DNA of 64,000 nt from Fertoeibacter niger. GTDB lineage: Bacteria; Pseudomonadota; Alphaproteobacteria; Rhodobacterales; Rhodobacteraceae. This document shows, piece by piece, positions 20,711-44,882 of the stretch. Within the stretch, counting starts at the first letter, position 1. The number at the start of each line of letters is the position of its first letter. The stretch is from NCBI RefSeq assembly GCF_009380135.2, contig NZ_WHUT02000006.1:186001-250000 (forward strand), in the 5' to 3' direction. The position numbers were made by a program, and so were the translations under genes. The notes under the pieces were generated by a model that was not told where the DNA came from, made no database searches, and saw nothing but the letters and a program-made list of their open reading frames with translations.

Positions 20711-21670
20711 TCAGCGCAGGCTGGACGGGGGCACGCCAAATTGCCGCCGGAAGGCGCGTGAGAGGGTGGCGGCGGAGGTGAAGCCGCAGCGCAGGGCGAT
20801 GTCAGCCAGCGGGTGCCTTGTGTCGGTAACCATGCGGCGGGCGGCGGCGAGGCGCAGCGAGAGGGCATAGGCGCCGGGTGTCTGGCCCAGGTTTGTGCGG
20901 AACAGGCCTTCGAGGTGGCGGGGGGATAGGCCGAGGGCGCGGGCGGTTTGCGCCACGGGTTCGGGTGTGTCGAGGCGCGATTCCATCCGGGCGATGGCGG
21001 CGGCCACGCGCGGATCAAGCCGGGGGTCGCGCGGCGGGGTGATCTGCGGCTCGGCCCCGTCGCGGGCGGTGGTGATGAAGCTGGCCGCGACCTGCATGGC
21101 CAGCGCCGCGCCGTGGCGGGCGCGGATCAGGTGCAGCATCAGGTCGGCGGCGGGGGCGGCCCCGCCTGCGGTGAAGCGGGGGCCCGAGATCACGAAACGG
21201 TCGGGCAAGACATCGACGGCGGGGTGGGCGCTGGCCAGATCCTCCAGATCCTCCCAATGCACGGTGGCCTTGTGGCCATCGAGCAGGCCCGCGCGGGCCA
21301 GCACCCAAGGCCCGGCATCAATGCCGCCGATGGCGCGAAAGCGCGGCGCGATGCGGCGCAGGTCGCGGATCAGGGGGCGGGTGGCGACCTCGGCCTGGCG
21401 GAAGCCTGCGATGACGATCAGGGCATCGGCCCCTTCGGCCTGGGTGAGGCCGCCGGTGGAGGGCAGTTCGATACCGCAGGTGAGGGGCACGGCGCGGCCA
21501 TCGGGAGAGACGACGCGCCAGCGGTAGGCGTCGCTGCCGATGTGACGGTTGGCGGAACGCAAAGGGTCAAGCGTGCTGGCAACCTCCAGGATCGAGGCTT
21601 GCGGCAGGACCAGCAGGGCGATGGTCAGGGGGGCTGTGCTGGCGGTGAAAATTGTTGCGCTTTGTGCCAT
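20711..21670 (-). CDS. GlxA-family AraC-type regulator, CdhR-like
   Basis: 319 residues. N-terminal DJ-1/PfpI (GATase1-like) domain (about 10-185, with GGIDAGPWVLARAGLLDG) followed by an AraC-type double helix-turn-helix (ETPEPVAQTARALGLSPRHLEGLF and LADIALRCGFTSAATLSRAFRRQFG). Regulators of this architecture next to carnitine genes include CdhR of Pseudomonas, which activates carnitine dehydrogenase genes. Start: the ATG at 21670. An in-frame extension to 22162 would run across the divergent gene. It shares a 73-base intergenic region with palindromes with the BKACE gene. Confidence 0.9.
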   Translation of the reverse strand: MAQSATIFTASTAPLTIALLVLPQASILEVASTLDPLRSANRHIGSDAYRWRVVSPDGRAVPLTCGIELPSTGGLTQAEGADALIVIAGFRQAEVATRPLIRDLRRIAPRFRAIGGIDAGPWVLARAGLLDGHKATVHWEDLEDLASAHPAVDVLPDRFVISGPRFTAGGAAPAADLMLHLIRARHGAALAMQVAASFITTARDGAEPQITPPRDPRLDPRVAAAIARMESRLDTPEPVAQTARALGLSPRHLEGLFRTNLGQTPGAYALSLRLAAARRMVTDTRHPLADIALRCGFTSAATLSRAFRRQFGVPPSSLR

Positions 21671-21675
21671 GTTTC

Positions 21676-21703
21676 TTGCGTAAATCGCAAAGCGCGGCTT
21701 TGC
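21676..21703. promoter_or_regulatory. Overlapping palindromes between cdhR-like and BKACE genes
   Basis: Two inverted repeats overlap: TTGCG-TAAAT-CGCAA (21676-21690) and GCAAAGC-GCG-GCTTTGC (21687-21703), both perfect. Their place midway in the divergent promoter region suggests an operator for the neighbouring regulator. Confidence 0.45.
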
Positions 21704-21743
21704 AAGCGCGCTAGAGTGGCTGCAACAGACCCCGGAGGATGCC

Positions 21744-22652
21744 ATGCCGCTGACCATGAACCGCGAAGTTTTCATCACCTGCGCCGTGACCGGATCAGGG
21801 GGCACGCAGGACCGTTCGCCCCATGTGCCGCGCAGCCCGGCGCAGATTGCGGATTCAGCGATTGCGGCGGCCAAGGCGGGCGCGGCGGTGGTGCATTGCC
21901 ATGTGCGCGACCCCGAAACGGGCAAGCCTTCGCGCGATCTGGCGCTGTACCGCGAGGTGACGGAGCGGATCCGCGACAGCGCCACCGATGTGGTCTTGAA
22001 CCTGACGGCGGGGATGGGCGGCGATCTGCTGTTTGACGGCACCGAAAACATGGGGCGCATGGCAGCGCGTTCCGACATGGCGGGTGCTGCGGAGCGGGTG
22101 GCGCATGTGGTGGAGTGCCGGCCCGAGATCTGCACGCTGGATTGTGGCACGATGAATTTCAACGAGGCCGATTATGTGATGGTCAACACCCCCGGCATGC
22201 TGCGCGACATGGGCGCGCGGATGCGCGACAGCGGCGTGCGGATCGAGATCGAGGCCTTTGACACCGGGCATCTGTGGTTTGCCAAGGAACTGGTGAAGGA
22301 GGGTGTGATCCCTGCGCCGGTGCTGGTGCAATTGTGCATGGGCGTGCCGTGGGGCGCGCCGGACGACCTGAACACCTTCATGGCGATGGTGAACAATGTG
22401 CCACAAGACTGGCACTGGTCGGCCTTTGCGCTGGGGCGGCACCAGATGCCCTATGTCGCGGCTTCTGTGCTGGCGGGGGGGAATGTGCGGGTGGGGTTGG
22501 AGGACAACCTGTGGCTTGACAAAGGCGTGCTTGCGACAAACGCGCAACTGGTGGAACGTGCGGCTACGATCATCGAAAACCTGGGCGCGCGGGTGATTAC
22601 TCCGGCCGAGGTGAGGGCGAAACTCAACCTGATGAAAAGGCCGCCATTATGA
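21744..22652 (+). CDS. BKACE-family beta-keto acid cleavage enzyme, probable 3-dehydrocarnitine:acetyl-CoA cleavage
   Basis: 302 residues of the Kce/BKACE TIM-barrel family, which condenses a beta-keto acid with acetyl-CoA and releases acetoacetate plus a new CoA ester. The zinc motif H-C-H-V-R-D-P is near residue 50 and the C-terminal E-D-N-L-W segment is present. Family members vary in substrate. Location just ahead of carnitine dehydrogenase argues for 3-dehydrocarnitine as substrate, giving betainyl-CoA. The ATG at 21744 has a GGAGG 5 bases upstream. Ends in an ATGA overlap with the lipocalin gene. Confidence 0.9.
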   Translation: MPLTMNREVFITCAVTGSGGTQDRSPHVPRSPAQIADSAIAAAKAGAAVVHCHVRDPETGKPSRDLALYREVTERIRDSATDVVLNLTAGMGGDLLFDGTENMGRMAARSDMAGAAERVAHVVECRPEICTLDCGTMNFNEADYVMVNTPGMLRDMGARMRDSGVRIEIEAFDTGHLWFAKELVKEGVIPAPVLVQLCMGVPWGAPDDLNTFMAMVNNVPQDWHWSAFALGRHQMPYVAASVLAGGNVRVGLEDNLWLDKGVLATNAQLVERAATIIENLGARVITPAEVRAKLNLMKRPPL

Positions 22653-23170
22653 CACGCATATTTCTGCTGGCCCTGCTGGGGCTGACTGCCTGCACCACCT
22701 ATCACCCCTCGCTGCGCTATTTCACATCGCCATTTTATGCCCGCGACATTGCCGTGTTGCGGCTGGAGGGGCGCTGGTATGAAGTGGCGAGTTTCCCCCT
22801 GGCCGCGCAGGCCGGTTGCAGACACACCACCGCCGATTTCAACAGCCTGCCCGATGGTCGCGTGGCGCTGCGCATCAGTTGCCGCGATACGGCGACCGGG
22901 GCCACGCGGCAGATCGATGGCGTGGCAACGGTGGCGGGCCCGGCGGAACTGACGCTGAAACAGGCGGGTGTGCCGTTGGCCACGCAACTGGCGCTGCTGG
23001 ATGTCAGCCGCGACGGGCGCATGGCGCTGATCGGGGTGAAGGGCCGCACGGGTGGCTGGATGCTGCACCGGTCCCGCGCGGCCTCGCCGCAGGATTACGA
23101 CCGGGCACGCGAGATTTTTGGCCGCAGCGGCTATGACGTGGCGGCATTGCAACGGACAAACCAGAGGTAG
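22649..23170 (+). CDS. Lipocalin-family lipoprotein (Blc-like)
   Basis: 173 residues. A short lipoprotein signal ends in the lipobox L-G-L-T-A-C (Cys about 15). The lipocalin G-x-W-Y-E-V-A motif follows (L-E-G-R-W-Y-E-V-A-S-F-P), then a beta-rich body with C-R-H-T-T and ISCRDTATG. Bacterial lipocalins of this kind bind hydrophobic or lipid ligands at the outer membrane. Its start overlaps the BKACE stop by 4 bases and the carnitine dehydrogenase gene begins 3 bases after its end, so it is embedded in the catabolic operon. Ligand unknown. Confidence 0.85.
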   Translation: MTRIFLLALLGLTACTTYHPSLRYFTSPFYARDIAVLRLEGRWYEVASFPLAAQAGCRHTTADFNSLPDGRVALRISCRDTATGATRQIDGVATVAGPAELTLKQAGVPLATQLALLDVSRDGRMALIGVKGRTGGWMLHRSRAASPQDYDRAREIFGRSGYDVAALQRTNQR

Positions 23171-23172
23171 AC

Positions 23173-24630
23173 ATGGCGCGCAAGGCGGCAATCATTGGCG
23201 GCGGGGTGATCGGGGGCGGCTGGGCCGCGCGGTTCCTGCTGAACGGCTGGAACGTTTCGGTGTTCGATCCCGACCCCGAGGCCGAACGCAAGATCGGCGA
23301 GGTTCTGGCCAATGCCCGCGCCGCCCTGCCCGCGCTGTCTGACCTTCCCATGCAATCCGAGGGTGTGCTGAGTTTTGCGGCAAGCATTACCGAAGCGGTG
23401 GAGGGCGCGGATTACATTCAGGAATCCGTGTCAGAGCGGCTGGACCTGAAGCACCGGGTCTTTGCACAAATTCAGCAATCGTCGCATGGGGTGCCGATCG
23501 GTTCCTCAACCAGCGGCTTCAAGCCCAGCGAGTTGCAGGAAGGCGCCGCCGACCCTTCGGTGATCTTTGTCGCGCATCCGTTCAACCCGGTCTATCTGCT
23601 GCCCTTGGCCGAGGTGGTGCCATCGGCGCGCTCTGACATGGCGCTGATTGAGCGCGTGAAGGAGGTGCTGCGCGAGATCGGCATGTTCCCCCTGCATGTC
23701 AGGAAGGAAATCGACGCCCATATCGCCGACCGCTTCCTTGAGGCCGTCTGGCGTGAGGCGCTGTGGCTGGTGAAGGACGGCGTGGCCACGACCGAGGAGA
23801 TTGACGAGGCGATCCGCATGGGCTTTGGCCTGCGCTGGGGGCAGATGGGGCTGTTCGAGACCTACCGCGTGGCGGGGGGCGAGGCGGGCATGAAGCATTT
23901 CATGGCGCAGTTCGGCCCCTGTCTGACCTGGCCCTGGACGAAACTGATGGATGTGCCCGAATTCAACGACGAGCTGGTCGATCTGATCGCCGGGCAGTCG
24001 GATGCGCAGTCGGGCCACCACACGATCCGCGAGCTGGAACGCATCCGCGACAGCAACCTGATCGGTTTCCTGCGCGCGCTGAAAGACCGCAACTGGGGCG
24101 CGGGCAAGGTTCTGCGCGACCATGACGCGCGGCGCGCGGTGGCGCTGGCCGCCGAGGTGCCGCAGGGTGCCCCGATGGTCATGGCCCGCATGCAGGTGCT
24201 GCCGGGCTGGATCGACTATAACGGCCATATGACCGAAAGCCGGTATTTGTTCGCTTCATCCGAAACGGTGGATGCTTTCCTGCGTTTCATTGGCGCGGAT
24301 GTTGAATATGTGAAAACCGGCTTCAGCTATTACACCGCCGAAACCCATATCATGCACCTTGGCGAGGCGCGGGTGGGTGATGCGCTGACCGGCAGCATCC
24401 AGGTGCTGGCGGCGGATGAAAAGCGCATCCACCTGTTCGTGCGTATCGAGAAGGCGGGCGAGGTGCTGGCCACGCTGGAACAGATGTTGCTGCATGTGGA
24501 CATGGCGGCGGGCAAAACCTGCGCCGCGCCGCAGATGATCCTTGACCGCGTGTTGCCACTGGCCGCAGCGCATGATGCATTGCCGCGCCCCGATGCGGCA
24601 GGCCGCCACGTCGGGCAAAGGAAAGCGTGA
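23173..24630 (+). CDS. L-carnitine 3-dehydrogenase fused to betainyl-CoA thioesterase
   Basis: 485 residues. Residues 1-~315 are a 3-hydroxyacyl-CoA-dehydrogenase-type NAD enzyme: Rossmann GGGVIGGGWAARFLLNGW, DYIQESVSERLDLK, GSSTSGFKPSEL, VAHPFNPVYLLPLAEVVPS. Together with the context this fits carnitine dehydrogenase (carnitine to 3-dehydrocarnitine). Residues ~335-470 are a hotdog thioesterase (VLPGWIDYNGHMTESRYLF, GEARVGDALTG). Such fusions are known in alphaproteobacteria, the thioesterase releasing glycine betaine from betainyl-CoA. With BKACE upstream the route is complete. TGATG overlap with the next gene. Confidence 0.92.
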   Translation: MARKAAIIGGGVIGGGWAARFLLNGWNVSVFDPDPEAERKIGEVLANARAALPALSDLPMQSEGVLSFAASITEAVEGADYIQESVSERLDLKHRVFAQIQQSSHGVPIGSSTSGFKPSELQEGAADPSVIFVAHPFNPVYLLPLAEVVPSARSDMALIERVKEVLREIGMFPLHVRKEIDAHIADRFLEAVWREALWLVKDGVATTEEIDEAIRMGFGLRWGQMGLFETYRVAGGEAGMKHFMAQFGPCLTWPWTKLMDVPEFNDELVDLIAGQSDAQSGHHTIRELERIRDSNLIGFLRALKDRNWGAGKVLRDHDARRAVALAAEVPQGAPMVMARMQVLPGWIDYNGHMTESRYLFASSETVDAFLRFIGADVEYVKTGFSYYTAETHIMHLGEARVGDALTGSIQVLAADEKRIHLFVRIEKAGEVLATLEQMLLHVDMAAGKTCAAPQMILDRVLPLAAAHDALPRPDAAGRHVGQRKA

Positions 24631-25790
24631 TGCATTACGGGCTGACCTCTGAACAGGAAATGATCGTCTCGACGGTGCGCAGCTTTGTCGAGAACGAGAT
24701 CTATCCCCTTGAAAAGCAGATCGAAGATCTGGGGTTTGTGCCGCATGAAATCGGTGCCGAGATCAAGCGCAAGACGCTGGACCTGGGGTTTTACGCCTGC
24801 AACTTCCCAGAAAGCGTGGGCGGCCCGGGGCTGAGCCATCTGGAATTCGCGCTGGTTGAAAGGGAACTGGGCCGTGGTTCCATGGCGCTGACGCATTTCT
24901 TCGGGCGCCCGCAGAACATCCTGATGGCCTGCACCGGCGAACAGGTGGAGCGCTATCTGCTGCCCGCTGTGCGTGGGCAGCGGATGGACGCGCTGGCGAT
25001 GACCGAACCCGATGCCGGATCGGACATCCGCGGCATGAAGACCACTGCGCGGCGCGATGGCGGCGACTGGGTGCTGAACGGCACCAAACACTTCATCTCC
25101 GGCGCGGAACATGCTGATTTCGTGATCGTTTTCGCGGCGACGGGGGAAGAGGCGACCTCTGCCGGGCCCAAGAAAAAGATCACCACCTTTCTGGTGGATC
25201 GCGGCACGCCGGGGTTCACCATCCGCGACGGCTACAAATCGGTCAGCCATCGCGGCTACAAGAACATGATCCTCGAATTCGACAACTGCCGCCTGCCCGA
25301 TGCGCAGGTGCTGGGGCAGGTGGATGGCGGGTTTGCGGTGATGAACGAATGGCTCTATGCCACCCGCATCACCGTGGCCACGATGAGCGTGGGCCGCGCG
25401 CGCCGGGTGTTCGACCTGATGCTGGACTATGCGGCAGCACGCAAGCAATTCGACCAGCCGATCGGGCGGTTTCAGGGAGTTGGCTTTCAACTTGCGGATT
25501 CGATTACGGAAATCGACGCGGCGGATCATCTGACGCTGGCCTCGGCCTGGCGGCTGGATCAGGGCCTTCCCGCCAACCGCGAAATTGCCTCGGCCAAGCT
25601 TTACGCCACCGAGATGCTGGCCCGTGTGACCGACAGGGCGATCCAGATACATGGCGGGATGGGGCTGATGGACGATCTGCCGCTGGAACGTTTCTGGCGC
25701 GACGCGCGGGTTGAACGGATCTGGGACGGCACCTCCGAGATCCAGCGCCACATCATCAGCCGCGATCTTCTGCGGCCCCTGGGGGCCTGA
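24630..25790 (+). CDS. Acyl-CoA dehydrogenase, candidate gamma-butyrobetainyl-CoA dehydrogenase
   Basis: 386 residues of the FAD acyl-CoA dehydrogenase family: MTEPDAGSDIRGMKTTA, VLNGTKHFISG, R-K-Q-F-D-Q-P-I-G-R-F-Q, IQIHGGMGLMDDLPLERFWRDAR and the C-terminal D-G-T-S-E-I-Q. In this cluster the likely reaction is gamma-butyrobetainyl-CoA to crotonobetainyl-CoA, which the CaiD-like enzyme would then hydrate. The specificity is inferred from context. The ATG at 24630 shares one base with the previous stop and has AAAGGAAAG upstream. The SelW-like gene follows after 3 bases. Confidence 0.9.
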   Translation: MHYGLTSEQEMIVSTVRSFVENEIYPLEKQIEDLGFVPHEIGAEIKRKTLDLGFYACNFPESVGGPGLSHLEFALVERELGRGSMALTHFFGRPQNILMACTGEQVERYLLPAVRGQRMDALAMTEPDAGSDIRGMKTTARRDGGDWVLNGTKHFISGAEHADFVIVFAATGEEATSAGPKKKITTFLVDRGTPGFTIRDGYKSVSHRGYKNMILEFDNCRLPDAQVLGQVDGGFAVMNEWLYATRITVATMSVGRARRVFDLMLDYAAARKQFDQPIGRFQGVGFQLADSITEIDAADHLTLASAWRLDQGLPANREIASAKLYATEMLARVTDRAIQIHGGMGLMDDLPLERFWRDARVERIWDGTSEIQRHIISRDLLRPLGA

Positions 25791-25793
25791 GCG

Positions 25794-26096
25794 ATGGGCA
25801 GGCCCGGCGTCGAGATCACCTATTGCACGCAATGCAACTGGCTGTTGCGATCGGGCTGGATGGCACAAGAACTGCTGTCAACTTTCGGCGCTGATCTGGG
25901 CTCGGTCGGGCTGGTGCCGGGGACGGGTGGTGTTTTCACCATCACACTGGATGGCGTGGTGATCTGGGACCGGCGGCTTGACGGCGGATTTCCCGATGTG
26001 AAGGCGCTTAAGCAACGGGTCCGCGACGCCGCCTGGCCGGGGCGGGACCTGGGGCATGTGGATCGGGTCGGACCGGCTGAGGGTGGTGCGGGTTGA
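25794..26096 (+). CDS. SelT/SelW/SelH-like (Rdx family) CxxC protein
   Basis: 100 residues. Thioredoxin-like Rdx fold with C-T-Q-C at residues 11-14 directly after the first strand (V-E-I-T-Y-C-T-Q-C-N-W), and a second strand GGVFTITLDGVVIWDR. Selenoprotein W relatives have Sec in the second position, but here it is a plain Cys codon. Function in bacteria is unknown, probably thiol redox. It is the last gene of the first carnitine segment, and its TGA stop is the first triplet of a dispersed repeat. Confidence 0.85.
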   Translation: MGRPGVEITYCTQCNWLLRSGWMAQELLSTFGADLGSVGLVPGTGGVFTITLDGVVIWDRRLDGGFPDVKALKQRVRDAAWPGRDLGHVDRVGPAEGGAG

Positions 26097-26169
26097 ACGC
26101 GCCGGGGAGGGTTTCACACCCTCCCCGGACCCCTCCCGTGGGATATTTCTGGACAGAAAATGGGAAAAG
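26095..26169 (+). repeat. Dispersed repeat, long form, copy 5
   Basis: Same 72-base element as 20636-20710 with only a few differences: TGAACGCGCCGGG, hairpin CCGGGGAGGGT / ACCCTCCCCGG, GTGGGATATTT, then GGACAGAAAATGGGAAA. Confidence 0.8.
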
Positions 26170-26312
26170 ATGGTGGCAAGCAACGCTTCGTTAACCCCGA
26201 GTCGCCATGATGGTCTGGCGGTACAGGCGGGGACGCCGATGACCGCGCCAGGAAATGGCACCTTGCTCCCGCATTGGGGGCAGGGTGTTCTGCGAGGGGC
26301 ATGCGGCCTGCT
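26170..26312. other. Spacer between two facing repeats
   Basis: 143 bases lacking a credible gene. Contains a GTTAACC at 26189 and otherwise GC-rich sequence. With the flanking repeats, the whole 300-base gap separates the SelW-like gene from the acyl-CoA synthetase gene. Confidence 0.4.
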
Positions 26313-26384
26313 CTCTTTCATTTTCTGCCCGAAAATATCCACGGGGGTCCGGGGGCAGTCAGCCCCCGGCGCCTGGCCGAAGGC
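26313..26384 (-). repeat. Dispersed repeat, copy 6
   Basis: On the minus strand: hairpin around GCCGGGGGC/GCCCCCGG, then GTGGATATTTTC and GGGCAGAAAATGAAAG. Inverted with respect to copy 5, so copies 5 and 6 face each other. Confidence 0.75.
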
Positions 26385-26396
26385 GCAGGTGCTGCC

Positions 26397-28412
26397 ATGA
26401 CGCGCGACCTGTCGCGTCTGCTGCGCCCGCGATCGATTGCCGTTCTGGGCTCTGGCTGGGCGCAGAACGTGGTGGAGCAATGCGCCCGCATGGGCTTTGA
26501 CGGCCCGGTCTGGCCGGTGCACCCGACGCGGAACCAGATCGGCGGGGTGGCGGCCTTCCGGTCGCTTGCCGATCTGCCGGGGGTGCCCGATGCCACGTTC
26601 ATCGGGGTGAACCGGCATGCCACGCTGGAGGTGGTGGCGGAACTGGCGGCGATGGGCGCGGGCGGCGCCACCTGCTTTGCCAGCGGATGGGAGGAGGCAG
26701 GCGAGGCCGATTTGCAAGTCGCGCTGGTGGCCGCGGCGGGCAACATGCCGGTGCTGGGGCCGAACTGCTACGGTGTGATCAATTATCTGGACGGGGCGTT
26801 GTTGTGGCCCGACCAGCATGGCGGGCGGCGGGTGGAGCGGGGGGTGGCGCTGCTCAGCCAGTCCTCGAACATCGTGATCAACATGACCATGCAGGCGCGC
26901 GGTCTGCCGGTGGCCTATGTCGCCTGTCTGGGCAATGCGGCGCAGGTGGGGTTGGCGGAATTGGCGGGCGCGCTGCTGGCGGATGACCGCGTCACGGCGT
27001 TGGGGCTGTATGTTGAAGGGATCGACGATGCGCCTGGTTTCGCTGCTCTGGCCGAGGCGGCGCGCGCGGCGGGCAAGGGCATCGTCTGCATCAAATCCGG
27101 CAAGACGGAACTGGCGCAGGTGGCCGCCGCCTCGCATACCGCATCTCTGGCCGGGGGCGGGGCGGCGTCGAGTGCTTTTCTGCGGCAGGCGGGCGTGGCC
27201 GAGGTGAACAGCCCTTCAGAATTGCTGGAGACGCTGAAGCTGTTTCATGTGCTGGCCGGGGCGGCGGGTGGCCCGCGGCTGGGCGGGCGGCTGTGTTCGC
27301 TGTCCTGTTCTGGAGGTGAGGCGGGGCTGGTGGCCGATCTGGCCGCGCCCTTCGGGCTGGAGTTTCCGCCGCCGTCGGATGCGCAGCGGGAACGGTTGGG
27401 TGCTATACTCGGGCCGATTGTCACCATCGCCAACCCGCTGGATTACCACACTTTCATCTGGGGCGACGGGCCGCGCACCACGGATGTGTTTTCTACCATG
27501 CTGGCGGGTTATGACGCGGGGCTGTTCATCATTGACCCGCCGCGCAGCGACCGCTGCGATCCGTCTTCCTATGGCCCCGCTCTGGAAGCGATCCGGGCTG
27601 CGGCCGCGGCGACCGGCAAGCCCGCCATCCCGCTGGCCTCGTTGCCCGAGAATTTTGACGAGGGCATGGCGGGGGAAATGCTGGCGCAGGGCATGGCCCC
27701 GCTGATGGGCCTGCAAGAGGGGCTGGCGGCGGTGAAGGCGGCGCAGACCGCGCCGGGGCGGCCGGGCTGGCGGCCTGTGCCCGCGCAAGCCACTGGCGGG
27801 ACGCGGTTATTGTCAGAGGCTGAGGGCAAGGCGCTGTTGGCGCGCGCGGGTATCGCCGTGCCGCGCGGAATTGCTGCGCCGACCCTCGCCCAACTGGCGG
27901 AGCGGGCCGGGCCATTGGTGCCGCCGCTTGCACTGAAGGGCCTCGGTTTTGCCCACAAGACCGAGTCGGGCGCGGTGCGTCTGGGCCTGGCCAGCCTGGA
28001 GGGGCAGGCCGAAATGCCGGGGGCCACGGGCTATCTGGCCGAGGAAATGGTTGCGGGCGCCGTGGCCGAGGTGATCATCGGCGCGCGGCGTGACCCGGTC
28101 TATGGTGTCACACTGACGCTGGGCATGGGCGGGGTGACGGCGGAACTTCTGGCCGACACGGTGACCCTGGTGGCCCCGGTGGGGGCGGATGAGGTGACAG
28201 CGGCGTTGCGGCGGCTGCGGCTGTGGCCCTTGCTGGATGGCTACCGGGGCCGCCCCAAGGCCGATGTGGCGGCAATGGTGACGGCTGTGCTGGCGGTGCA
28301 GGGCCTGATGCTGGCGCGGCCCGCGCTGGCCGAAATTGAAATCAACCCGTTGATATTGCGCGCTGATGGGGCGGTCGCGGTGGATGCGCTGGTGAGGGAG
28401 GAATTGCCGTGA
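26397..28412 (+). CDS. NDP-forming acyl-CoA synthetase, candidate gamma-butyrobetaine/carnitine-CoA ligase
   Basis: 671 residues with the three-part ADP-forming synthetase layout: CoA-binding domain (LRPRSIAVLGSG, PVHPTRNQIGG, VLGPNCYGVIN), succinyl-CoA-ligase-like domain (VALLSQSSNIV, and the likely phospho-His loop ASHTASLAGG), and a C-terminal ATP-grasp domain (LKGLGFAHKTESGAVRLGL, EIEINPLIL). The ATG at 26397 is used because the frame further upstream is repeat sequence. Acting with the acyl-CoA dehydrogenase and CaiD-like proteins it would activate a betaine acid to its CoA ester. GTGA overlap with the hydratase gene. Confidence 0.88.
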   Translation: MTRDLSRLLRPRSIAVLGSGWAQNVVEQCARMGFDGPVWPVHPTRNQIGGVAAFRSLADLPGVPDATFIGVNRHATLEVVAELAAMGAGGATCFASGWEEAGEADLQVALVAAAGNMPVLGPNCYGVINYLDGALLWPDQHGGRRVERGVALLSQSSNIVINMTMQARGLPVAYVACLGNAAQVGLAELAGALLADDRVTALGLYVEGIDDAPGFAALAEAARAAGKGIVCIKSGKTELAQVAAASHTASLAGGGAASSAFLRQAGVAEVNSPSELLETLKLFHVLAGAAGGPRLGGRLCSLSCSGGEAGLVADLAAPFGLEFPPPSDAQRERLGAILGPIVTIANPLDYHTFIWGDGPRTTDVFSTMLAGYDAGLFIIDPPRSDRCDPSSYGPALEAIRAAAAATGKPAIPLASLPENFDEGMAGEMLAQGMAPLMGLQEGLAAVKAAQTAPGRPGWRPVPAQATGGTRLLSEAEGKALLARAGIAVPRGIAAPTLAQLAERAGPLVPPLALKGLGFAHKTESGAVRLGLASLEGQAEMPGATGYLAEEMVAGAVAEVIIGARRDPVYGVTLTLGMGGVTAELLADTVTLVAPVGADEVTAALRRLRLWPLLDGYRGRPKADVAAMVTAVLAVQGLMLARPALAEIEINPLILRADGAVAVDALVREELP

Positions 28413-29209
28413 CGATGACCATGCAGACCGAGGGCCCGGTGCGGACACGCCGCGAAGGTGCCATTCTGGAGGTGACGCTGGACCGGCCCAAGGCCAATGC
28501 CATCGACCTTGCGACCAGCCGGATCATGGGGCTGACCTTCCGCGCCTTTCGTGACGATGACAGCCTGCGCGTCTGCATCCTGCGGGCGGAGGGTGAGAAA
28601 TTCTTTTGCCCCGGCTGGGATCTGAAGGCGGCGGCGGGTGGCGATGCTGTGGACGGCGATTATGGCGTGGGCGGATTTGGCGGCTTGCAGGAATTGCCGA
28701 ACCTGAACAAGCCGGTGATTGCCGCCGTGAACGGCATCTGCTGTGGCGGCGGGCTGGAACTGGCGCTGTCTTGCGACCTGATCCTGGCGTCGGAAAATGC
28801 CACTTTCGCGCTGCCGGAGATAAGGTCGGGCACGGTGGCCGATGCCGCCAGCATCAAGCTGCCGAAACGCATCCCCTATCATGTGGCGATGGACCTGTTG
28901 CTGACCGGGCGCTGGTTTGACGCGGAAGAGGCGCTGCGCTGGGGGCTTTTGAAAGAGATCACCATGCCCGCCGATCTGCTGCCAAAGGCCTGGGCGCTGG
29001 CGCGGCTGCTCGAATCCGGCCCGCCGCTGGTCTATGCCGCGATCAAGGAGGTGGTGCGCGAGGCCGAGGACATGCGGTTTCAGGACGCGCTGAACCGGAT
29101 CACCAAGCGGCAACTGGCCACGGTGGACCGGCTTTACGCCTCGGAAGACCAGCTGGAAGGTGCGCGCGCTTTTGCGGAAAAGCGCGATCCGGTCTGGAAA
29201 GGGCGCTGA
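28409..29209 (+). CDS. CaiD-like carnitinyl-CoA dehydratase / crotonobetainyl-CoA hydratase (crotonase family)
   Basis: 266 residues. The crotonase core (LDRPKANAID, KPVIAAVNGICCGGGLELAL, EIRSGTVADAASIKLP) and, more tellingly, G-E-K-F-F-x-x-G-W-D-L-K-A-A-A and the C-terminal A-F-A-E-K-R-D-P-V-W-K-G-R closely match E. coli CaiD as I remember it. It would interconvert crotonobetainyl-CoA and L-carnitinyl-CoA. The initiation codon is a GTG overlapping the synthetase stop. A 122-base gap with a small palindrome separates it from the GMC gene. Confidence 0.9.
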   Translation: MTMTMQTEGPVRTRREGAILEVTLDRPKANAIDLATSRIMGLTFRAFRDDDSLRVCILRAEGEKFFCPGWDLKAAAGGDAVDGDYGVGGFGGLQELPNLNKPVIAAVNGICCGGGLELALSCDLILASENATFALPEIRSGTVADAASIKLPKRIPYHVAMDLLLTGRWFDAEEALRWGLLKEITMPADLLPKAWALARLLESGPPLVYAAIKEVVREAEDMRFQDALNRITKRQLATVDRLYASEDQLEGARAFAEKRDPVWKGR

Positions 29210-29253: not shown

Positions 29254-29268
29254 CGACATTCCTTGTCG
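29254..29268. promoter_or_regulatory. Small palindrome upstream of the GMC gene
   Basis: Perfect arms CGACA-TTCCT-TGTCG, 64 bases before the GMC start. A possible operator. The arms are short and could be chance. Confidence 0.25.
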
Positions 29269-29331
29269 CAATCCGCAGCGCCCGCCCCGTTGCCCCGGCT
29301 AGTTTGGCCCAAGCAGCAAAGGGGCAGCGCG

Positions 29332-30954
29332 GTGCAGATCGAGACGCCGGATTACATCATCGTGGGGTCAGGTTCGGCGGGCTCGGTGCTGGCCGAGCGG
29401 CTGACGGCCAGCGGGCGGCACCGCGTTGTGGTGCTGGAGGCGGGCGGGTCTGACCGGCGGTTCTATGTCCATCTGCCGCTGGGCTATGGCAAGCTGTTCT
29501 ACGACCCCGCGGTGAACTGGGGCTACCGGACAGAGCCTGACCCCGGGCTGGCCGGGCAGCGCGATTACTGGCCGCGCGGGAAAATCCTTGGCGGGTCATC
29601 CTCGATCAACGCCATGGTCTATATTCGCGGCCAGGCGGCGGATTACGACGATTGGGCGGCGGCGGGCAACCCGGGCTGGGGCTGGGGCGATGTGCTGCCC
29701 GCCTTCCGCGCGATGGAGGATACCGAGGCTGGCGCAGATGAATGGCGCGGCACGGGCGGGCCGCTGTTCGTGTCGGCCAACCGGCGCGGGCTGCACCCGC
29801 TGGTGCGCAACTATCTGGATGCCTGTGCGGCGGCGGGCCTGCCGGAAACGCCGGATTTCAACGGCGCGCGGCAAGAGGGGGCGGGCGTCTATCAGTTGAC
29901 GGTGAAGGACGGGCGTCGCAATTCGGCGGCGCGGGCGTTCCTGCGCCCAGCGATGAAGCGGCCCAATCTGGCGGTGGTGACGGGCGCACATGTGACGCGG
30001 GTGCTGATCGAACAGGGCCGCGCGGTGGGGGTGGAATACCGCCATGGCGGGCAGACAAGGACGCTGCGCGCACGGGGCGAGGTGATCCTGTCGGGCGGGG
30101 CGATCAACTCTCCGCAATTGCTGCAACTGTCAGGCGTGGGACCGGGCGCGTTGCTGCAAGGGCTGGGCATTCCGGTGCTGCAGCACAACCCCAATGTGGG
30201 CGGCAACCTCAGCGACCATCAGGGGTTGAACTATACCTGGCGAATGAACGTGCCCACCTACAACACCATCCTGCGGCCCTGGTGGGGCAAGGCGCTGGTG
30301 GGGCTGCAATATGTGCTGACGCGGGGCGGGCCGCTGGCCAAGTCGATCAACCACGCGGGCGGCTTCTTCCGCACCTCGCCCGACCTCGCGCGGCCCAACA
30401 TGCAGCTTTACATGCAGGCGTTTTCCACGCTGGTCCCGCGCGAGGGCGAACGCCCGCTGCTGACGCCCGACCCGTTTCCGGGCCTGTCGCTGGGCCTGTC
30501 GAACTGTCGGCCCACCAGCCGGGGGCATATCCATATCGCGTCGTCCGACCCGTTTGCGCATCCGGTGATCACGGCCAATGCCTATTCGACCAACCACGAT
30601 GTGGAAGAGATGCTGGCGGCGGTGAAATATCTGCGGCATCTGGCGGCCCAACCCGCCCTTGCATCCGTCATCGCCGAGGAACTGCGCCCCGGGCCGGATT
30701 GCGTGACGGATGACCAGATGGTCGATGACCTGCGCCGACGCTCGGGCACAGTCTATCACCCGTCCTGCACCTGCCGCATGGGGCCGGATCCGGCGACATC
30801 GGTGGTGGATGCGGGCCTCAGGGTGCATGGCGTGGCGGGGCTGCGGGTGATCGATGCCTCCAGCTTCCCCAATCTGATCGCGGGCAACACCAATGCGCCC
30901 GCGATGATGCTGGGCTGGAAGGGCGCAGAACGGGTGCTGGCCGACGCAAGCTGA
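29332..30954 (+). CDS. GMC-family oxidoreductase, choline dehydrogenase-like
   Basis: 540 residues: N-terminal FAD loop YIIVGSGSAGSVLAERL, LEAGGSDRRF, GMC signature 1 (PRGKILGGSSSINAMVYIRG), signature 2 (SGGAINSPQLLQLSGVG), and the C-terminal catalytic His (TVYHPSCTCRMGPDP) with Asn in GNTNAPAMM. It is closest in appearance to BetA (choline to betaine aldehyde), and the convergent choline sulfatase supports that, but AlkJ-type alcohol dehydrogenases look similar. The GTG at 29332 is chosen, 7 bases after AGGGG, because the earlier frame lacks a ribosome site. No betaine aldehyde dehydrogenase gene is in the window. Confidence 0.85.
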   Translation: MQIETPDYIIVGSGSAGSVLAERLTASGRHRVVVLEAGGSDRRFYVHLPLGYGKLFYDPAVNWGYRTEPDPGLAGQRDYWPRGKILGGSSSINAMVYIRGQAADYDDWAAAGNPGWGWGDVLPAFRAMEDTEAGADEWRGTGGPLFVSANRRGLHPLVRNYLDACAAAGLPETPDFNGARQEGAGVYQLTVKDGRRNSAARAFLRPAMKRPNLAVVTGAHVTRVLIEQGRAVGVEYRHGGQTRTLRARGEVILSGGAINSPQLLQLSGVGPGALLQGLGIPVLQHNPNVGGNLSDHQGLNYTWRMNVPTYNTILRPWWGKALVGLQYVLTRGGPLAKSINHAGGFFRTSPDLARPNMQLYMQAFSTLVPREGERPLLTPDPFPGLSLGLSNCRPTSRGHIHIASSDPFAHPVITANAYSTNHDVEEMLAAVKYLRHLAAQPALASVIAEELRPGPDCVTDDQMVDDLRRRSGTVYHPSCTCRMGPDPATSVVDAGLRVHGVAGLRVIDASSFPNLIAGNTNAPAMMLGWKGAERVLADAS

Positions 30955-31182: not shown

Positions 31183-32685
31183 TCATTCCCCCCGCGGATA
31201 GCGCTTGTTTTCCTCCAGCACGTTCAGATCCATGTGGTTGCGCATATAGCGTTCGGATGCGGCGCGCAGGGGCTGGTGATCCCAGGGGTAGTAGCCGCCC
31301 ATGCGCAGCGCCTTATAGACCACCCAGCGGCGGGCCTGGCTTTCGCGCACGGCAGCGTCAAAGCGCGGCAGATCCCAACGGGCGGCAAGAGCGCGGAGTT
31401 GTGCAAGCGTATCACGGGCTGCGGGGCTTTCGGCCAGATTGTCCCGTTCGCCGGGGTCGGTGGCAAGGTTGTAAAGCTGGTCGGGGTCGGCGGGGCAGTG
31501 GATGTATTTCCAGTCGCCCATGCGCAGGGCGACCATCGGGGTGATGGTGCCCTCGGCGGCATATTCCATCGGGACCGGGGCGCGCTCTGCCCCTGCGGCC
31601 ACGGGCAGCAGCGAGGTGCCGTCGGTCCATGGCATCACCTCGGCCATGGAGATGCCGGCCAGATCGCAAAGCGTGGGTGTAAGGTCGATGGTCGAGACGG
31701 GGGTGGTGATGCGGCCCGCCGCGATGCCGGGGGCGGCGATCATCAGGGGCACGCGGGCGGAGCCTTCGAAGAAGTTCATCTTGAACCAGAGGCCACGTTC
31801 GCCCAGCATTTCGCCGTGGTCCGAAACGAAGACCACGATCGCCTCTTGCCGCGTCGCCTCCAGCGTGGCGAGGATTTCGCCGATTTTCGCATCGACGTAG
31901 GAGATGTTGGCGAAGTAGCCCTGGCGGGCGCGGCGGATATGGTCCTCGGTGATCTCGAACGCGCCGGCATCGCAGGCATCCAGCAGGCGGCGCGAATGCG
32001 CGTCCTGATCGGCATAGGCGATGGGCGCCGGTGCATCCAGCATCGGGTGATCGTTGTAGAGATCCCAGTATTTGCGGCGGGCCACGAAAGGATCATGCGG
32101 GTGGGTGAAGCTGGCGGTGAGGCACCAGGGGCGCGGATCGGTGCCGCGCGACAGGTCATAGAGTTTCTGCACCGCCTGATGGCAGACATCATCGTCATAT
32201 TCCAGCTGGTTGGTGATTTCCGCCACGCCCGCGCCCGTGACCGATCCGAGGTTGTGATACCACCAGTCGATGCGTTCGCCCGGTTTGCGGTAATCGGGCG
32301 TCCAGCCGAAATCGGCGGGGTAGATGTCGGTGGTCAGCCGTTCCTCGAACCCGTGCAGCTGGTCGGGGCCCACGAAATGCATCTTGCCGCTGAGCGTGGT
32401 CTGATAGCCCGCGCGGCGCAGGTGGTGGGTGAAGCAGGGAATGTCCGAGGCGAATTCGGCGGCATTGTCATAAACCCGCGTGCGGTGCGGCAACTGGCCT
32501 GACATGAAGGACGCCCGGGCGGGCGCGCAGAGCGGGCTGGCGGTATAGGCATTGGCGAAACGGGCGGAACGCGCGGCAAGCCGTTTCAGATTGGGCGCAT
32601 GCAGCCATTCGGCCGGGCCGTCGGGAAACAGCGTGCCGTTCAGCTGATCGACCATCAGGATCAGTATGTTGGGGGGCTGTGACAT
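31183..32685 (-). CDS. betC: Choline sulfatase
   Basis: 500 residues of the alkaline-phosphatase-like sulfatase superfamily. It hydrolyses choline-O-sulfate to choline and sulfate. The formylglycine motif C-A-P-A-R begins at Cys53 (SPLCAPARASFMSGQLPHRT). Metal ligands are in ILILMVDQLNG and VFVSDHGEMLGERGLWFK. The choline-sulfatase C-terminal tail (SQARRWVVYKAL, RNHMDLNVLEENKRYP) is present and separates BetC from other sulfatases. It is divergent from the CocE-like gene and convergent with the choline-dehydrogenase-like GMC gene, linking choline-O-sulfate to betaine. Confidence 0.95.
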   Translation of the reverse strand: MSQPPNILILMVDQLNGTLFPDGPAEWLHAPNLKRLAARSARFANAYTASPLCAPARASFMSGQLPHRTRVYDNAAEFASDIPCFTHHLRRAGYQTTLSGKMHFVGPDQLHGFEERLTTDIYPADFGWTPDYRKPGERIDWWYHNLGSVTGAGVAEITNQLEYDDDVCHQAVQKLYDLSRGTDPRPWCLTASFTHPHDPFVARRKYWDLYNDHPMLDAPAPIAYADQDAHSRRLLDACDAGAFEITEDHIRRARQGYFANISYVDAKIGEILATLEATRQEAIVVFVSDHGEMLGERGLWFKMNFFEGSARVPLMIAAPGIAAGRITTPVSTIDLTPTLCDLAGISMAEVMPWTDGTSLLPVAAGAERAPVPMEYAAEGTITPMVALRMGDWKYIHCPADPDQLYNLATDPGERDNLAESPAARDTLAQLRALAARWDLPRFDAAVRESQARRWVVYKALRMGGYYPWDHQPLRAASERYMRNHMDLNVLEENKRYPRGE

Positions 32686-32795: not shown

Positions 32796-34787
32796 ATGAA
32801 AACCGTCACCGAATTTCCGCACCCGATCACCGACGACCCCGACATGATCATCACGCTGGCCGATGGCTGCCGCCTGTCGGCGCGGGTCTGGATGCCGGTG
32901 GATGCCGCCGCCAATCCGGTGCCTGCGGTGCTGGAATACATCCCCTATCGCAAGCGCGACGGCACGCTGCCGCGCGATGAAATCATGCATGCCTATGTGG
33001 CGGGGCATGGCTATGCCTGCGTCAGGGTGGACATGCGCGGCAATGGCGACAGCGACGGGCTGATGGAGGATGAGTATACCGCGCAGGAACTGGCCGATGC
33101 AGTGGAGGTGATCGGCTGGCTGGCGGCACAGCCCTGGTGCAGCGGCGCCGTGGGGATGATGGGCAAAAGCTGGGGCGGGTTCAACTGTTTGCAGACCGCC
33201 TGGCTGCAACCCCCGGCGCTGAAGGCGGTGATTTCCGTCTGTTCCACCATCGACCGTTTTGCCGATGACATCCATTTCAAGGGCGGGTGTCTGCTGAACG
33301 AGAATCTGGGCTGGGGGGCGGTGATGCTGTCCTATTCGTCACGCCCTGCCGATCCGGCGCTGCGGGGCGACTGGCGCGCGAACTGGCTTGCGCGGCTGGA
33401 GGCGCAGCCGTTTCTGGCACCCCGCTGGGCCGGGCATCAGGCGCGCGATGCATATTGGCGGCACGGGTCGGTGGGCGAGGATTACAGCCGCTTGCAGGTG
33501 CCGGTACTGAGTATCGGCGGCTGGGCCGACAATTACATGAACACCGTGGCGCATCTGGTGGAAAACGCGCCGCTGGCCAAGGGCATCGTGGGGCCCTGGG
33601 TGCACCAATACCCGCATACCGCCGTGCCGGGCCCGCAGATCGGCTTTCTGCAAGAGGCGCTGCGCTGGTGGGACCGCTGGCTGAAGGGCATCGCCAACGG
33701 GGCCGAGGATGACCCGGCTATGCGCGCCTACATGCTGCATTCCGCCCCGCCTGATGCCAGCGCACCGCATCGCGCCGGGCATTGGCTTGCCGAACCCGTC
33801 TGGCCCAGCCCGCGCGTGACCCAACAGGTTCTGGCGCTGACGCAGGGGGGCGAGTTGGGCGGTGACGGGGTGCTGCATGCCCGCGTGAACACGCCGCAGC
33901 ATCTGGGGCTGCACACGGGAGAGTTTTTCCCGATGGGGCTGAATGGCGAAATGCCGGGCGATCAGGCCCCGGATGATGTGCTGTCGGTCTGTTTCGATAC
34001 CGCCCCGCTGGAGACCCCGCTTGATCTGCTGGGCGCGGCGCGGCTGGTGCTGCGGCTGAGCGCGGACCAGCCGCGCGCCTTTCTGGCGGCGCGGCTGTGC
34101 GACGTGGCGCCTGACGGATCGTCGGTGCGGATTGCCCACGGCATGCTGAACCTGTGCCACCGCGACAGCATGGCCGAACCCGCCCTGCTGCCGGTGGGGC
34201 AAGAGGTGGCGGCGGTGCTGGTGCTGGACCAGATGGCGTATCGGCTGGCCCCGGGGCACCGGCTGCGCATCGCGCTGTCCACAACCTATTGGCCGTTCCT
34301 GTGGCCCAGCCCGGTTGCGGCCACGGTGACGTTGCACGCCGCCACCCTGCATCTGCCGGTGCATCAGGGCAGCGAAACGGAATGGGTGGCACCACCACCC
34401 GAAGGCGCGGCACCCTGGCGGCACAAGGTGCTGCGCGAGGGCCATGCGGCGCGGCGCGTGGAGCATGACCTGATCGCGGGCACGGTGGCCCTGGTGGTCG
34501 AGGATGAAGGCGGCGACACGGAAAACCTGGCGCATGGCCTGATCACCGGCGACACGATGGCCGAACGCTGGCAGGTGCATCCCGATGATCCGCTGGCGGC
34601 ACGGGCCGAGATCCGGTGGGAACAGCGGCTGTCGCGGGGCGATTGGGCGGTGCGCACACTGGCCACCGCCGCGATGTGGTCGGATGCCACGCACCTGCAC
34701 ATGGAGGCCCGGCTGGAGGCATTTGAGGGTGACAATGTCGTTTTTGCCCGCAACTATGCCGAAAAGGTTCCGCGCGACTTCATCTGA
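32796..34787 (+). CDS. CocE/NonD-family serine hydrolase (X-Pro dipeptidyl-peptidase S15 type)
   Basis: 663 residues, no signal peptide. The alpha/beta-hydrolase domain has the nucleophile in G-K-S-W-G-G (GMMGKSWGGFNCLQTAW), the acid in LSIGGWADNYMN and the His in GPWVHQYPH. A C-terminal jelly-roll domain (residues ~350-560) with LRIALSTTYWPFLWPSP completes the CocE/S15 layout. A ~100-residue C-terminal extension follows. Family members cleave esters or amides, such as cocaine esterase and glutaryl acylases. It precedes an ABC importer by 98 bases, suggesting that it processes the imported compound. Substrate unknown. Confidence 0.9.
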   Translation: MKTVTEFPHPITDDPDMIITLADGCRLSARVWMPVDAAANPVPAVLEYIPYRKRDGTLPRDEIMHAYVAGHGYACVRVDMRGNGDSDGLMEDEYTAQELADAVEVIGWLAAQPWCSGAVGMMGKSWGGFNCLQTAWLQPPALKAVISVCSTIDRFADDIHFKGGCLLNENLGWGAVMLSYSSRPADPALRGDWRANWLARLEAQPFLAPRWAGHQARDAYWRHGSVGEDYSRLQVPVLSIGGWADNYMNTVAHLVENAPLAKGIVGPWVHQYPHTAVPGPQIGFLQEALRWWDRWLKGIANGAEDDPAMRAYMLHSAPPDASAPHRAGHWLAEPVWPSPRVTQQVLALTQGGELGGDGVLHARVNTPQHLGLHTGEFFPMGLNGEMPGDQAPDDVLSVCFDTAPLETPLDLLGAARLVLRLSADQPRAFLAARLCDVAPDGSSVRIAHGMLNLCHRDSMAEPALLPVGQEVAAVLVLDQMAYRLAPGHRLRIALSTTYWPFLWPSPVAATVTLHAATLHLPVHQGSETEWVAPPPEGAAPWRHKVLREGHAARRVEHDLIAGTVALVVEDEGGDTENLAHGLITGDTMAERWQVHPDDPLAARAEIRWEQRLSRGDWAVRTLATAAMWSDATHLHMEARLEAFEGDNVVFARNYAEKVPRDFI

Positions 34788-34843
34788 ACAATGTTTCGAT
34801 GGCTGGGCAGGAATTCGTTGCCCGAAACCGGATTCGCGGGTTA

Positions 34844-34859
34844 TTGATTCTTCAATCAA
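34844..34859. promoter_or_regulatory. TTGATT-N4-AATCAA palindrome upstream of the ABC importer
   Basis: Perfect 6-bp arms around CTTC, 26 bases before the binding-protein ATG, in an AT-rich patch. It looks like an operator. Half-site spacing is 2 bases longer than an FNR box. Confidence 0.4.
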
Positions 34860-34885
34860 CAAAAATGATCCTCAGGGAGACTGCT

Positions 34886-36472
34886 ATGAACGACGAACTG
34901 AAGTATCTTCTGTCGCGCGCCGCTCAGGGCAAATACAGCCGTCGCGCCTTCATGGGCAAAGCTGCGGCCTTTGGCATGACGGCCGCGATGGCCAACACGC
35001 TGCTGGCGACCGCCGTGCGCGCCGAAGGCCCGGTGAAGGGTGGCACGCTGCTGATGGGTCTGGGTGGCGGCGAATCCACCAACAGCCTTGATCCGGCGCT
35101 GGCGGCCAGCCAGGTGCCCTTCCACGTTCTGCGCACCAGTGGCGAGCCGCTGGTTGACGTGACCGCCGATGGTCAGCTGGACATGCGGCTGGCGGAAAGC
35201 GTCGAAAGCTCGGCCGATGCAAAGACCTGGATGTTCAAGATCCGTCAGGGCGCAGAATTCCACAACGGCAAGACCGTGACACCGGATGACGTGCTGGCCA
35301 CCCTGCTGCGCCACAGCGATGAAAAGGCGCAATCGGGCGCGCTGGGCATCATGCAGGGCATCGAATCGATGAAGGTTGATGGCGACATGGTGGTTGTCAC
35401 CCTGTCCACCGCCAATGCCGACCTGCCCTATCTGATGGCCGATTACCACCTGATGATCCAGCCCGAGGGTGGCGTGGCCAACCCGGCGGATGGCATCGGG
35501 GCCGGTGCCTACAAGATCATCGTGAACGAGCCCGGCGTGCGCCACACGTTTGAAAAGCACGCGAATTACTGGGATTCGTCGCGCGGCCATTATTACGGGG
35601 TGGAATTTCTGGTCATCAACGACGCCACCGCGCGCATGGCTGCGATCCAGTCGGGCCAGGTGCATATCGCCAACCGGGTGGAGCCCAAGGTGGCCGGCCT
35701 TCTGGCACGCGCGCCGGGGCTGACGGTGAAGAACGTGTCGGGCCGTGGCCACTACGTGTTCATCATGCATGCCAATACCGCGCCCTTCGACAACAAGGAT
35801 CTGCGGCTGGCGCTGAAATACGCCATCGACCGGCAGGAGATGGTGGACAAGATCCTGCAAGGCTACGGCTCCATCGGCAACGATATCCCGATCAACGCGG
35901 CCTATCCGCTGTTTGACGAAAGCCTGCCGCAGCGCGCCTTCGATCTGGAAAAGGCGGCCGAGCATTACAAGGCCTCGGGGCATGACGGCAGCCCGATCAT
36001 CCTGCGCGTGTCGGATGTGGCCTTCCCGGGCGCCATCGACGCGGCGGCCCTATTCCAGCAATCGGCTGCCAAGGCCGGGATTCCGCTGGAAATCAAGCGC
36101 GAGCCGGGTGACGGTTACTGGTCAGAAGTCTGGAACAAGCAGCCGTTCTGCGCCTCATACTGGGGCGGGCGTCCGGTGCAGGACCAGATGTATTCCACCG
36201 CCTACCAGTCCACCGCCGACTGGAACGACACGCGGTTCTTCAACCCCAAGTTCGACGAGACGCTGCTGGCCGCGCGTGGCGAACTGGACCAGACCAAACG
36301 CAAGGCGATGTATGCCGAAATGGCCGCCATCCTGCATGACGAAGGCGGGTTGATCTGCCCGATGTTCAACGACTTCATTGAAGCGGTGGGCGACAAGGTG
36401 CAGGGCTGGGAAACCGATGGCGTGCAAGAAGTGATGAACGGCCTTGCGCCGCACAAGACCTGGCTCGCGTAA
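34886..36472 (+). CDS. ABC transporter substrate-binding protein, peptide/opine family (SBP_bac_5), Tat signal
   Basis: 528 residues. The N-terminus carries a twin-arginine signal (YSRRAFMGKAAAFGMTAAMA, cleaved near VRAEG), then the SBP_bac_5 fold: GGTLLMGLGGG, TWMFKIRQGAEFHNGKTVTPDDV, and LRLALKYAIDRQEMVDKIL. The family binds di/oligopeptides, opines, nickel or sugars, so the ligand is not decided. The ATG at 34886 with CAGGGAGA upstream is used. It heads an operon with two permeases and a fused ATPase, behind the CocE-like hydrolase. Confidence 0.92.
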   Translation: MNDELKYLLSRAAQGKYSRRAFMGKAAAFGMTAAMANTLLATAVRAEGPVKGGTLLMGLGGGESTNSLDPALAASQVPFHVLRTSGEPLVDVTADGQLDMRLAESVESSADAKTWMFKIRQGAEFHNGKTVTPDDVLATLLRHSDEKAQSGALGIMQGIESMKVDGDMVVVTLSTANADLPYLMADYHLMIQPEGGVANPADGIGAGAYKIIVNEPGVRHTFEKHANYWDSSRGHYYGVEFLVINDATARMAAIQSGQVHIANRVEPKVAGLLARAPGLTVKNVSGRGHYVFIMHANTAPFDNKDLRLALKYAIDRQEMVDKILQGYGSIGNDIPINAAYPLFDESLPQRAFDLEKAAEHYKASGHDGSPIILRVSDVAFPGAIDAAALFQQSAAKAGIPLEIKREPGDGYWSEVWNKQPFCASYWGGRPVQDQMYSTAYQSTADWNDTRFFNPKFDETLLAARGELDQTKRKAMYAEMAAILHDEGGLICPMFNDFIEAVGDKVQGWETDGVQEVMNGLAPHKTWLA

Positions 36473-36488
36473 CGCGGGCGGCGGGCGC

Positions 36489-37445: not shown

Positions 37446-37452
37446 GGGCCGC

Positions 37453-44819: not shown

Positions 44820-44882
44820 AAAATCACTCCTCAAATTGCACGAGCCACAGGCATACGCTGGCCTGAAATTGGCGCAACGTCA

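Follow-up and report, generated by a model that had tools for sequence, protein, structure and literature searches.

The DNA analysed here, a 64,000-nt window of the 4.3-Mb genome of Fertoeibacter niger (contig NZ_WHUT02000006.1, positions 186,001-250,000), contains a regulator gene that diverges from a run of genes for a BKACE, a carnitine 3-dehydrogenase fused to a thioesterase, an acyl-CoA dehydrogenase (ACAD), a nucleoside diphosphate (NDP)-forming acyl-CoA ligase and a hydratase resembling CaiD of Escherichia coli (Table 1). A preliminary description had placed these five enzymes at 20711-29209, and all five are complete reading frames with profile matches. The fusion with its adjoining BKACE, and the ACAD, ligase and hydratase in the same cluster, place the locus among the aerobic gamma-butyrobetaine-to-betaine clusters of the Sinorhizobium meliloti type. 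We consider it very likely that this is an aerobic catabolic cluster for quaternary amines of the Sinorhizobium type, which would convert carnitine, and probably gamma-butyrobetaine, to glycine betaine.

The dehydrogenase-thioesterase fusion matches the carnitine 3-dehydrogenase model at 759 bits, above the cut-off of 592, and its thioesterase domain (PF13279) occupies residues 342-459. The BKACE is 71% identical to that of the carnitine cluster of Sinorhizobium sp. B11. The hydratase aligns with E. coli CaiD over 253 residues and shares its AFAEKRDPVWKGR end, as had been noticed earlier; its best NCBIfam model is crotonobetainyl-CoA hydratase (296.5 bits, under the cut-off of 500), and both crotonase glutamates, 117 and 137, are kept in 84 of 84 relatives (residue counts over 84, 97 and 98 relatives, here and below, cover complete frames of a set minimum length scoring more than 200 bits). 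For the regulator, the best NCBIfam model is GbdR (191 bits, under the cut-off of 480), and inspection of start codons favors the ATG at 21670 over the raw open reading frame start at 22162.

Table 1. Genes and other features of the locus and its surroundings, in window coordinates.
Feature	Position	Strand	Basis or remark
GlxA/GbdR/CdhR-type AraC-family regulator	20711..21670	-	DJ-1/PfpI + HTH_18 (Pfam/NCBIfam); divergent from BKACE
Intergenic stretch, presumed promoter/operator	21671..21743	.	73 bases, between divergent genes
BKACE, presumed dehydrocarnitine cleavage enzyme	21744..22652	+	PF05853, 344 bits
Lipocalin-like protein	22649..23170	+	PF08212; 4-base overlap with BKACE
Carnitine 3-dehydrogenase fused to 4HBT-type thioesterase (predicted betainyl-CoA thioesterase)	23173..24630	+	NF005716; PF02737 + PF00725 + PF13279
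ACAD, presumed gamma-butyrobetainyl-CoA dehydrogenase	24627..25790	+	Profile matches; 74% to Sinorhizobium sp. B11 cluster ACAD
Rdx/SelT-SelW-SelH family protein, occasional passenger	25794..26096	+	PF10262, TIGR02174
NDP(ADP)-forming acyl-CoA ligase, presumed gamma-butyrobetaine/crotonobetaine:CoA ligase	26397..28412	+	CoA_binding_2, Succ_CoA_lig, ATP-grasp_5 (Pfam)
CaiD-like hydratase, predicted to act on crotonobetainyl-CoA	28409..29209	+	NCBIfam; 52.6% to E. coli CaiD
GMC oxidoreductase, choline-dehydrogenase-like, occasional neighbor	29263..30954	+	NCBIfam betA, 487 bits (cut-off 732)
Choline sulfatase BetC	31183..32685	-	TIGR03417, 865 bits (cut-off 433)
CocE/NonD hydrolase, possibly an acylcarnitine esterase	32796..34787	+	Peptidase_S15/PepX_C
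ABC importer, presumed carnitine/gamma-butyrobetaine uptake	34799..39895	+	
Importer binding protein	34799-36472	+	SBP_bac_5
Importer permeases	about 36489-37445 and 37456-38268	+	
Importer fused ATPases	38261-39895	+	

What ties the ACAD, ligase and CaiD-like hydratase (hereafter the triad) to carnitine is the company they keep across genomes. In a sample of 196 genomes of the order, searched at E thresholds of 1e-80 for the ligase, 1e-60 for carnitine dehydrogenase, 1e-90 for the ACAD and 1e-65 for the hydratase, these genes were found in 139, 160, 141 and 138 genomes, respectively. Carnitine dehydrogenase was present in all 139 genomes with the ligase versus 21 of the 57 without it (Fisher 7e-25), and after collapsing to genera, 66 had both, none the ligase only, 12 the dehydrogenase only and 10 neither (p = 1.4e-7). 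Class-wide, among 190 genomes, the dehydrogenase accompanied the ligase in 18 of 19 cases and occurred in 9 of the 171 genomes without it (p = 1e-17), or 15 of 16 versus 9 of 171 with the window's own family dropped, several of these class-wide dehydrogenases being 37-47% matches whose alignment leaves out the fused thioesterase. Requiring at least 300 bits for the dehydrogenase, again with the three own-family genomes dropped, left 9 of 16 versus 6 of 171 (p = 7e-8).

The same genes also recur side by side. Among named loci picked by the ACAD alone (the best 80 of 572), the full triad is present in 70, and some of the ten triad-incomplete loci end at a contig edge. Carnitine dehydrogenase and BKACE join the triad in 34 of these 70, the dehydrogenase lying upstream of the ACAD in 25 and downstream in 9; a GlxA-type regulator is found in 18 of the 36 full-triad loci without the dehydrogenase, and a regulator homolog in 47 of the 80. 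These named relatives are mostly Rhodobacteraceae, and the grouping of regulator, BKACE, dehydrogenase and triad extends to other families of the class (L120, L130 and L131 among 20 stretches compared, with matches below 60 bits or 40% coverage left out), so the gene set is not a chance assembly. Given the 139 of 139 ligase genomes with the dehydrogenase, and the clustering of the triad with carnitine genes on plasmids of Rhizobium and Sinorhizobium, the route from gamma-butyrobetaine or crotonobetaine through carnitine to glycine betaine, proposed in the preliminary description, is the best reading of the cluster.

Its further claim, that an NDP-forming ligase and the lack of CaiB make an unusual variant, is not supported: the ligase is common in the order and there are precedents in S. 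meliloti, where BcoAB with ATP, Mg and CoA forms gamma-butyrobetainyl-CoA (as stated in a section of PMC8364193) and SM2011_c01638 performs both the carnitine dehydrogenase and the betainyl-CoA step (a passage of PMC12482172, citing Bazire et al. 2019). The cluster belongs to a pathway already known from root-nodule bacteria, and the NDP-forming ligase is the usual partner in the order.

Two observations concern related loci elsewhere. A short-chain dehydrogenase/reductase (SDR)-like gene of about 253 residues lies between or near BKACE and carnitine dehydrogenase in 13 of the 80 loci (for example L039:7266-8027; others among L031-L110). Three sister clusters, L134, L135 and L128, all have an ACAD at 50-52% and a ligase at 38-41% identity, with a BKACE (53-57%) in L134 and L135, a 36% dehydrogenase and a 43-44% hydratase in L128 and L135, and ABC-transporter-like genes in L128 and L134; possibly these represent a parallel route for another onium acid.

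Comparison with Rhizobiaceae bears on how far the cluster extends. On a plasmid of Sinorhizobium sp. B11 (L113) the order is GlxA, BKACE, carnitine 3-dehydrogenase, ACAD, "acetate--CoA ligase family protein", caiD, a four-gene ABC importer and a CocE/NonD hydrolase, and the genes listed for a plasmid of Rhizobium sp. NZLR1 (L112) follow this order too, the hydrolase being set off by a gap. The window genes from 32796 to 39895 are relatives of this importer and hydrolase: against B11 the binding protein is 56% identical, the permeases 59% and 64%, the ATPase 67%, and the hydrolase 60% over 209 residues (the locus includes no more than the first 223 residues of the B11 protein). On this basis the cluster probably runs to 39895 and includes an uptake system. 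The 14 gene families that recur in 7 or more of the 80 loci include no obvious transporter accompanying the triad, except for a mixed ABC-ATPase family that occurs in 8 loci and on both strands, and for this reason the importer is assigned from the Rhizobiaceae and from a Donghicola locus (L106) whose binding protein (69%) and permease (72%) are related. On Agrobacterium fabrum pAt1D1487, importer genes are intermingled with those for BKACE and carnitine dehydrogenase, and a carnitine importer, cntTUVW, is described for Ruegeria pomeroyi in part of PMC10130141.

The hydrolase also allows a different account of the triad. If it released carnitine and a short acid from short-chain acylcarnitines, then the ligase, ACAD and hydratase could feed that acid to beta-oxidation; the hydrolase adjoins the importer both here and in Sinorhizobium, and the ACAD resembles short-chain ACADs. 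The hydratase, however, is CaiD-like at 52.6% identity, BcoAB offers a precedent for gamma-butyrobetaine, no hydrolase match of at least 400 bits occurs in any of the best 80 triad loci, and none of the 14 families that recur in 7 or more of these loci was recognized as a thiolase (the SDR-like family in 13 loci and others of the 14 being left without identity). This account seems improbable to us.

The ligase has as its closest solved relative by sequence DddX (192.7 bits), which is also the best structural match of its AlphaFold model (7cm9; template modeling score, TM, 0.86; 24-25% identity; mean predicted local distance difference test score, pLDDT, 90.4). As described in sections of PMC8163506, DddX is an ATP-dependent lyase of dimethylsulfoniopropionate (DMSP) that ligates this onium acid; its phosphohistidine is His292, the sulfonium makes cation-pi contacts with Trp391 and Phe435, and the base for DMSP-CoA cleavage is most probably Glu432. 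In the window ligase, His247 aligns with His292 and is present in 97 of 97 relatives, and the ATP-grasp His520 is invariant in 34 of 34; with its three domains (Table 1), swinging-loop phosphohistidine, ATP-grasp histidine and fold, the protein is a member of the ACD superfamily. Trp355 is invariant in 97 of 97 aligned relatives and lies on Trp391 in a fragment alignment, while His351 stands there in the full-length alignment; because the two disagree, Trp355 is a lead rather than proof, and perhaps the ligase keeps the cation-pi tryptophan. Trp355 was also considered as a marker of carnitine-linked ligases and rejected, since the 97 include ligases without carnitine linkage. Glu432 is not kept, Pro394 or variable neighbors standing opposite it in a region where the alignment is weak, and an onium-acid ligase without the lyase glutamate would fit gamma-butyrobetaine. 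Elsewhere in the genome, PF13607 found, besides the ligase, one 34-bit match, to a 309-residue frame that presumably encodes the alpha chain of succinyl-CoA ligase. A literature search returned no published NDP-forming ligase linked by wording to crotonobetaine or gamma-butyrobetaine, Bazire et al. 2019 being outside its reach.

The likeness to DddX could be taken at face value, the ligase being a DMSP lyase, the ACAD and hydratase processing acryloyl-CoA and the carnitine genes mere neighbors, and in agreement with this, the best model for the ACAD is an acryloyl-CoA reductase. The non-conserved residues opposite Glu432, weakly aligned as they are, and the strict co-occurrence with carnitine dehydrogenase, which extends to Rhizobium and Sinorhizobium from plants and soil, make this highly unlikely.

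Several findings weigh against a gamma-butyrobetaine route. The hydratase, ACAD and ligase all fall under every curated NCBIfam cut-off (25 of 72 hydratase families shown). The ACAD is nearer to the acryloyl-CoA reductase model (278 bits) than to CaiA (169 bits; 29% identity), and its catalytic glutamate is replaced by aspartate (residue 367 here) in 94 of 98 relatives, with glutamate in 4. Carnitine dehydrogenase lies within 10 kb of the ligase in only 45 of the 139 genomes (6 without a printed position counted as apart), one genome of the class-wide sample (G254) carries a 41% ligase but lacks carnitine dehydrogenase, and carnitine dehydrogenase loci in Agrobacterium fabrum, Sinorhizobium garamanticum and Ruegeria sp. 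TM1040 list no triad gene, although the PLSDB gene tables are incomplete. That BcoAB belongs to the family of the window ligase is inferred from the gene content of clusters in other Rhizobiaceae; in those of Sinorhizobium sp. B11 and Rhizobium sp. NZLR1 the NDP-forming ligase is the only CoA ligase listed.

The ACAD seems to have a gene history different from that of the ligase. Among the 102 loci where both genes are at least 90% complete, the window ligase groups with those of L002 and L005, two loci in which ACAD identity to the window's is only 60-62%, and the window ACAD groups with L032, L031, L035 and L033. Two ACAD types about 60% alike thus appear to exchange in one operon slot, which suggests the same job for both.

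That job would be oxidative in the preferred route; the enteric alternative, in which the triad runs reductively, with carnitine as electron acceptor and gamma-butyrobetaine as product, shares the chemistry of CaiABCD and an ACAD nearest to a reductase model, yet it has next to no likelihood given that the ACAD is only 29% identical to CaiA, that the genome lacks a close relative of CaiB, that a scan confined to the cluster proteins found neither a CaiT-like nor a Fix-like gene, and that the neighboring genes continue oxidatively to betaine.

From the gene identities, the key residues of ligase and hydratase, the recurrence and the co-occurrence computed here, we infer the following substrates in Fertoeibacter niger. 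The ABC importer would bring in carnitine and gamma-butyrobetaine, and the ADP-forming ligase would join gamma-butyrobetaine, or crotonobetaine, to CoA via its phosphohistidine. The ACAD would then convert gamma-butyrobetainyl-CoA to crotonobetainyl-CoA, and the hydratase would convert this to carnitinyl-CoA. If carnitine is released from carnitinyl-CoA, by the ligase in reverse or by the fused thioesterase, then the fused dehydrogenase would oxidize it to dehydrocarnitine, the BKACE would turn dehydrocarnitine and acetyl-CoA into betainyl-CoA and acetoacetate, and the thioesterase would free glycine betaine from betainyl-CoA. Two MTTB-family methyltransferases in the genome could take glycine betaine further.

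The release step would allow two solutions. A separate carnitinyl-CoA hydrolase was not found among the named genes of the cluster, and the fused thioesterase may do this work. L120, on the other hand, has regulator, BKACE, ACAD, ligase and hydratase with a dehydrogenase of 325 residues that lacks the thioesterase, and no other frame of this 18-kb locus resembled the thioesterase domain in a BLAST comparison; a thioesterase encoded elsewhere or of another type may be present. We raise, tentatively and with some doubt, the idea that the ligase does two jobs, charging gamma-butyrobetaine and, in reverse, taking CoA off carnitinyl-CoA (and also off betainyl-CoA in clusters that lack the fused thioesterase, such as L120) while remaking ATP. 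If this is how the ligase is utilized, one near-equilibrium enzyme would replace CaiC and CaiB, and carnitine would form almost without ATP cost. In any case, the module occurs in 139 of 196 genomes sampled from an order with many marine bacteria, yet its ligase is annotated as "acetate--CoA ligase family protein"; the assignment gives this widespread, vaguely named protein a testable role, points to the importer and turns carnitinyl-CoA release into a direct assay question.

From BKACE to the GMC oxidoreductase, adjacent genes overlap by 4 bases or stand 2-53 bases apart, except for a 300-base gap between the Rdx gene and the ligase that holds a repeat element. One 71-base repetitive extragenic palindrome (REP)-like element, mostly intergenic, lies at 20638-20708 and 26097-26167 (93% identity between copies); further segments of the gap recur at 39934-39982 and 61485-61534, and 26319-26354 holds inverted partial copies. 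An Rdx/SelT-SelW-SelH homolog follows the ACAD in 4 of the 80 loci, all labeled Shimia (L062, L073, L091 and L097). The GMC oxidoreductase is 51% identical to a GMC protein encoded close to the triad of R. pomeroyi and has a homolog in 2 of the 80 related loci. BetC would feed choline towards glycine betaine, and because it sits between the carnitine genes and the importer, two feeds towards the same product stand side by side. Farther along, at 42240-44834 on the minus strand, lies a gene for an RTX-repeat protein with an HCBP-related domain, in a region of about 59% GC, among the lowest in the window.

Among known systems, the enteric caiTABCDE/fixABCX genes share with the window a CaiD-like hydratase and an ACAD that presumably interconverts crotonobetainyl-CoA and gamma-butyrobetainyl-CoA, although the latter is only 29% identical to CaiA. 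A genome search for CaiB gave only two matches (26% and 29%), and one for CaiC gave 11 (25-32%, general AMP ligases), none of them in the cluster; the oxidative, aerobic direction proposed here is a further difference. DddX resembles the window ligase as an ACD-superfamily ligase for an onium carboxylate with the same phosphohistidine and differs from it in its low identity and in its lyase base. Carnitine catabolism in Pseudomonas aeruginosa is encoded by cdhR and cdhCAB; here, in contrast, the thioesterase is fused to the dehydrogenase and a gamma-butyrobetaine module is added.

Strain HK4, which is Rhizobium/Agrobacterium-like, converts gamma-butyrobetaine to carnitine by a fatty-acid-like route (described in part of PMC2131755), and R. 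pomeroyi was grown on carnitine, with CdhABC synthesis up during growth on such osmolytes (in sections of PMC12478193). The R. pomeroyi triad lies on the megaplasmid of strain DSS-3 (SPO_RS21280, 21275 and 21265), with a DJ-1/PfpI gene between the ligase and a "carnitinyl-CoA dehydratase". The S. meliloti pathway shares with the window the fusion of carnitine dehydrogenase to a thioesterase and, presumably, a gamma-butyrobetaine:CoA ligase, and the work of Bazire et al. in 2019 (J Bacteriol 201:e00772-18) is said to have assigned five enzymes to the seven steps from gamma-butyrobetaine to betaine in that species. In Sinorhizobium sp. B11 the genes from regulator and BKACE through the fusion, ACAD and NDP-forming ligase to caiD are arranged as in the window, and importer and hydrolase come after them. 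Compared with B11, the window has a lipocalin, an Rdx protein, a GMC oxidoreductase and a choline sulfatase inserted, a repeat between the Rdx gene and the ligase, the hydrolase before rather than after the importer, and a ligase and dehydrogenase fusion that are only 49% and 54% identical to their counterparts.

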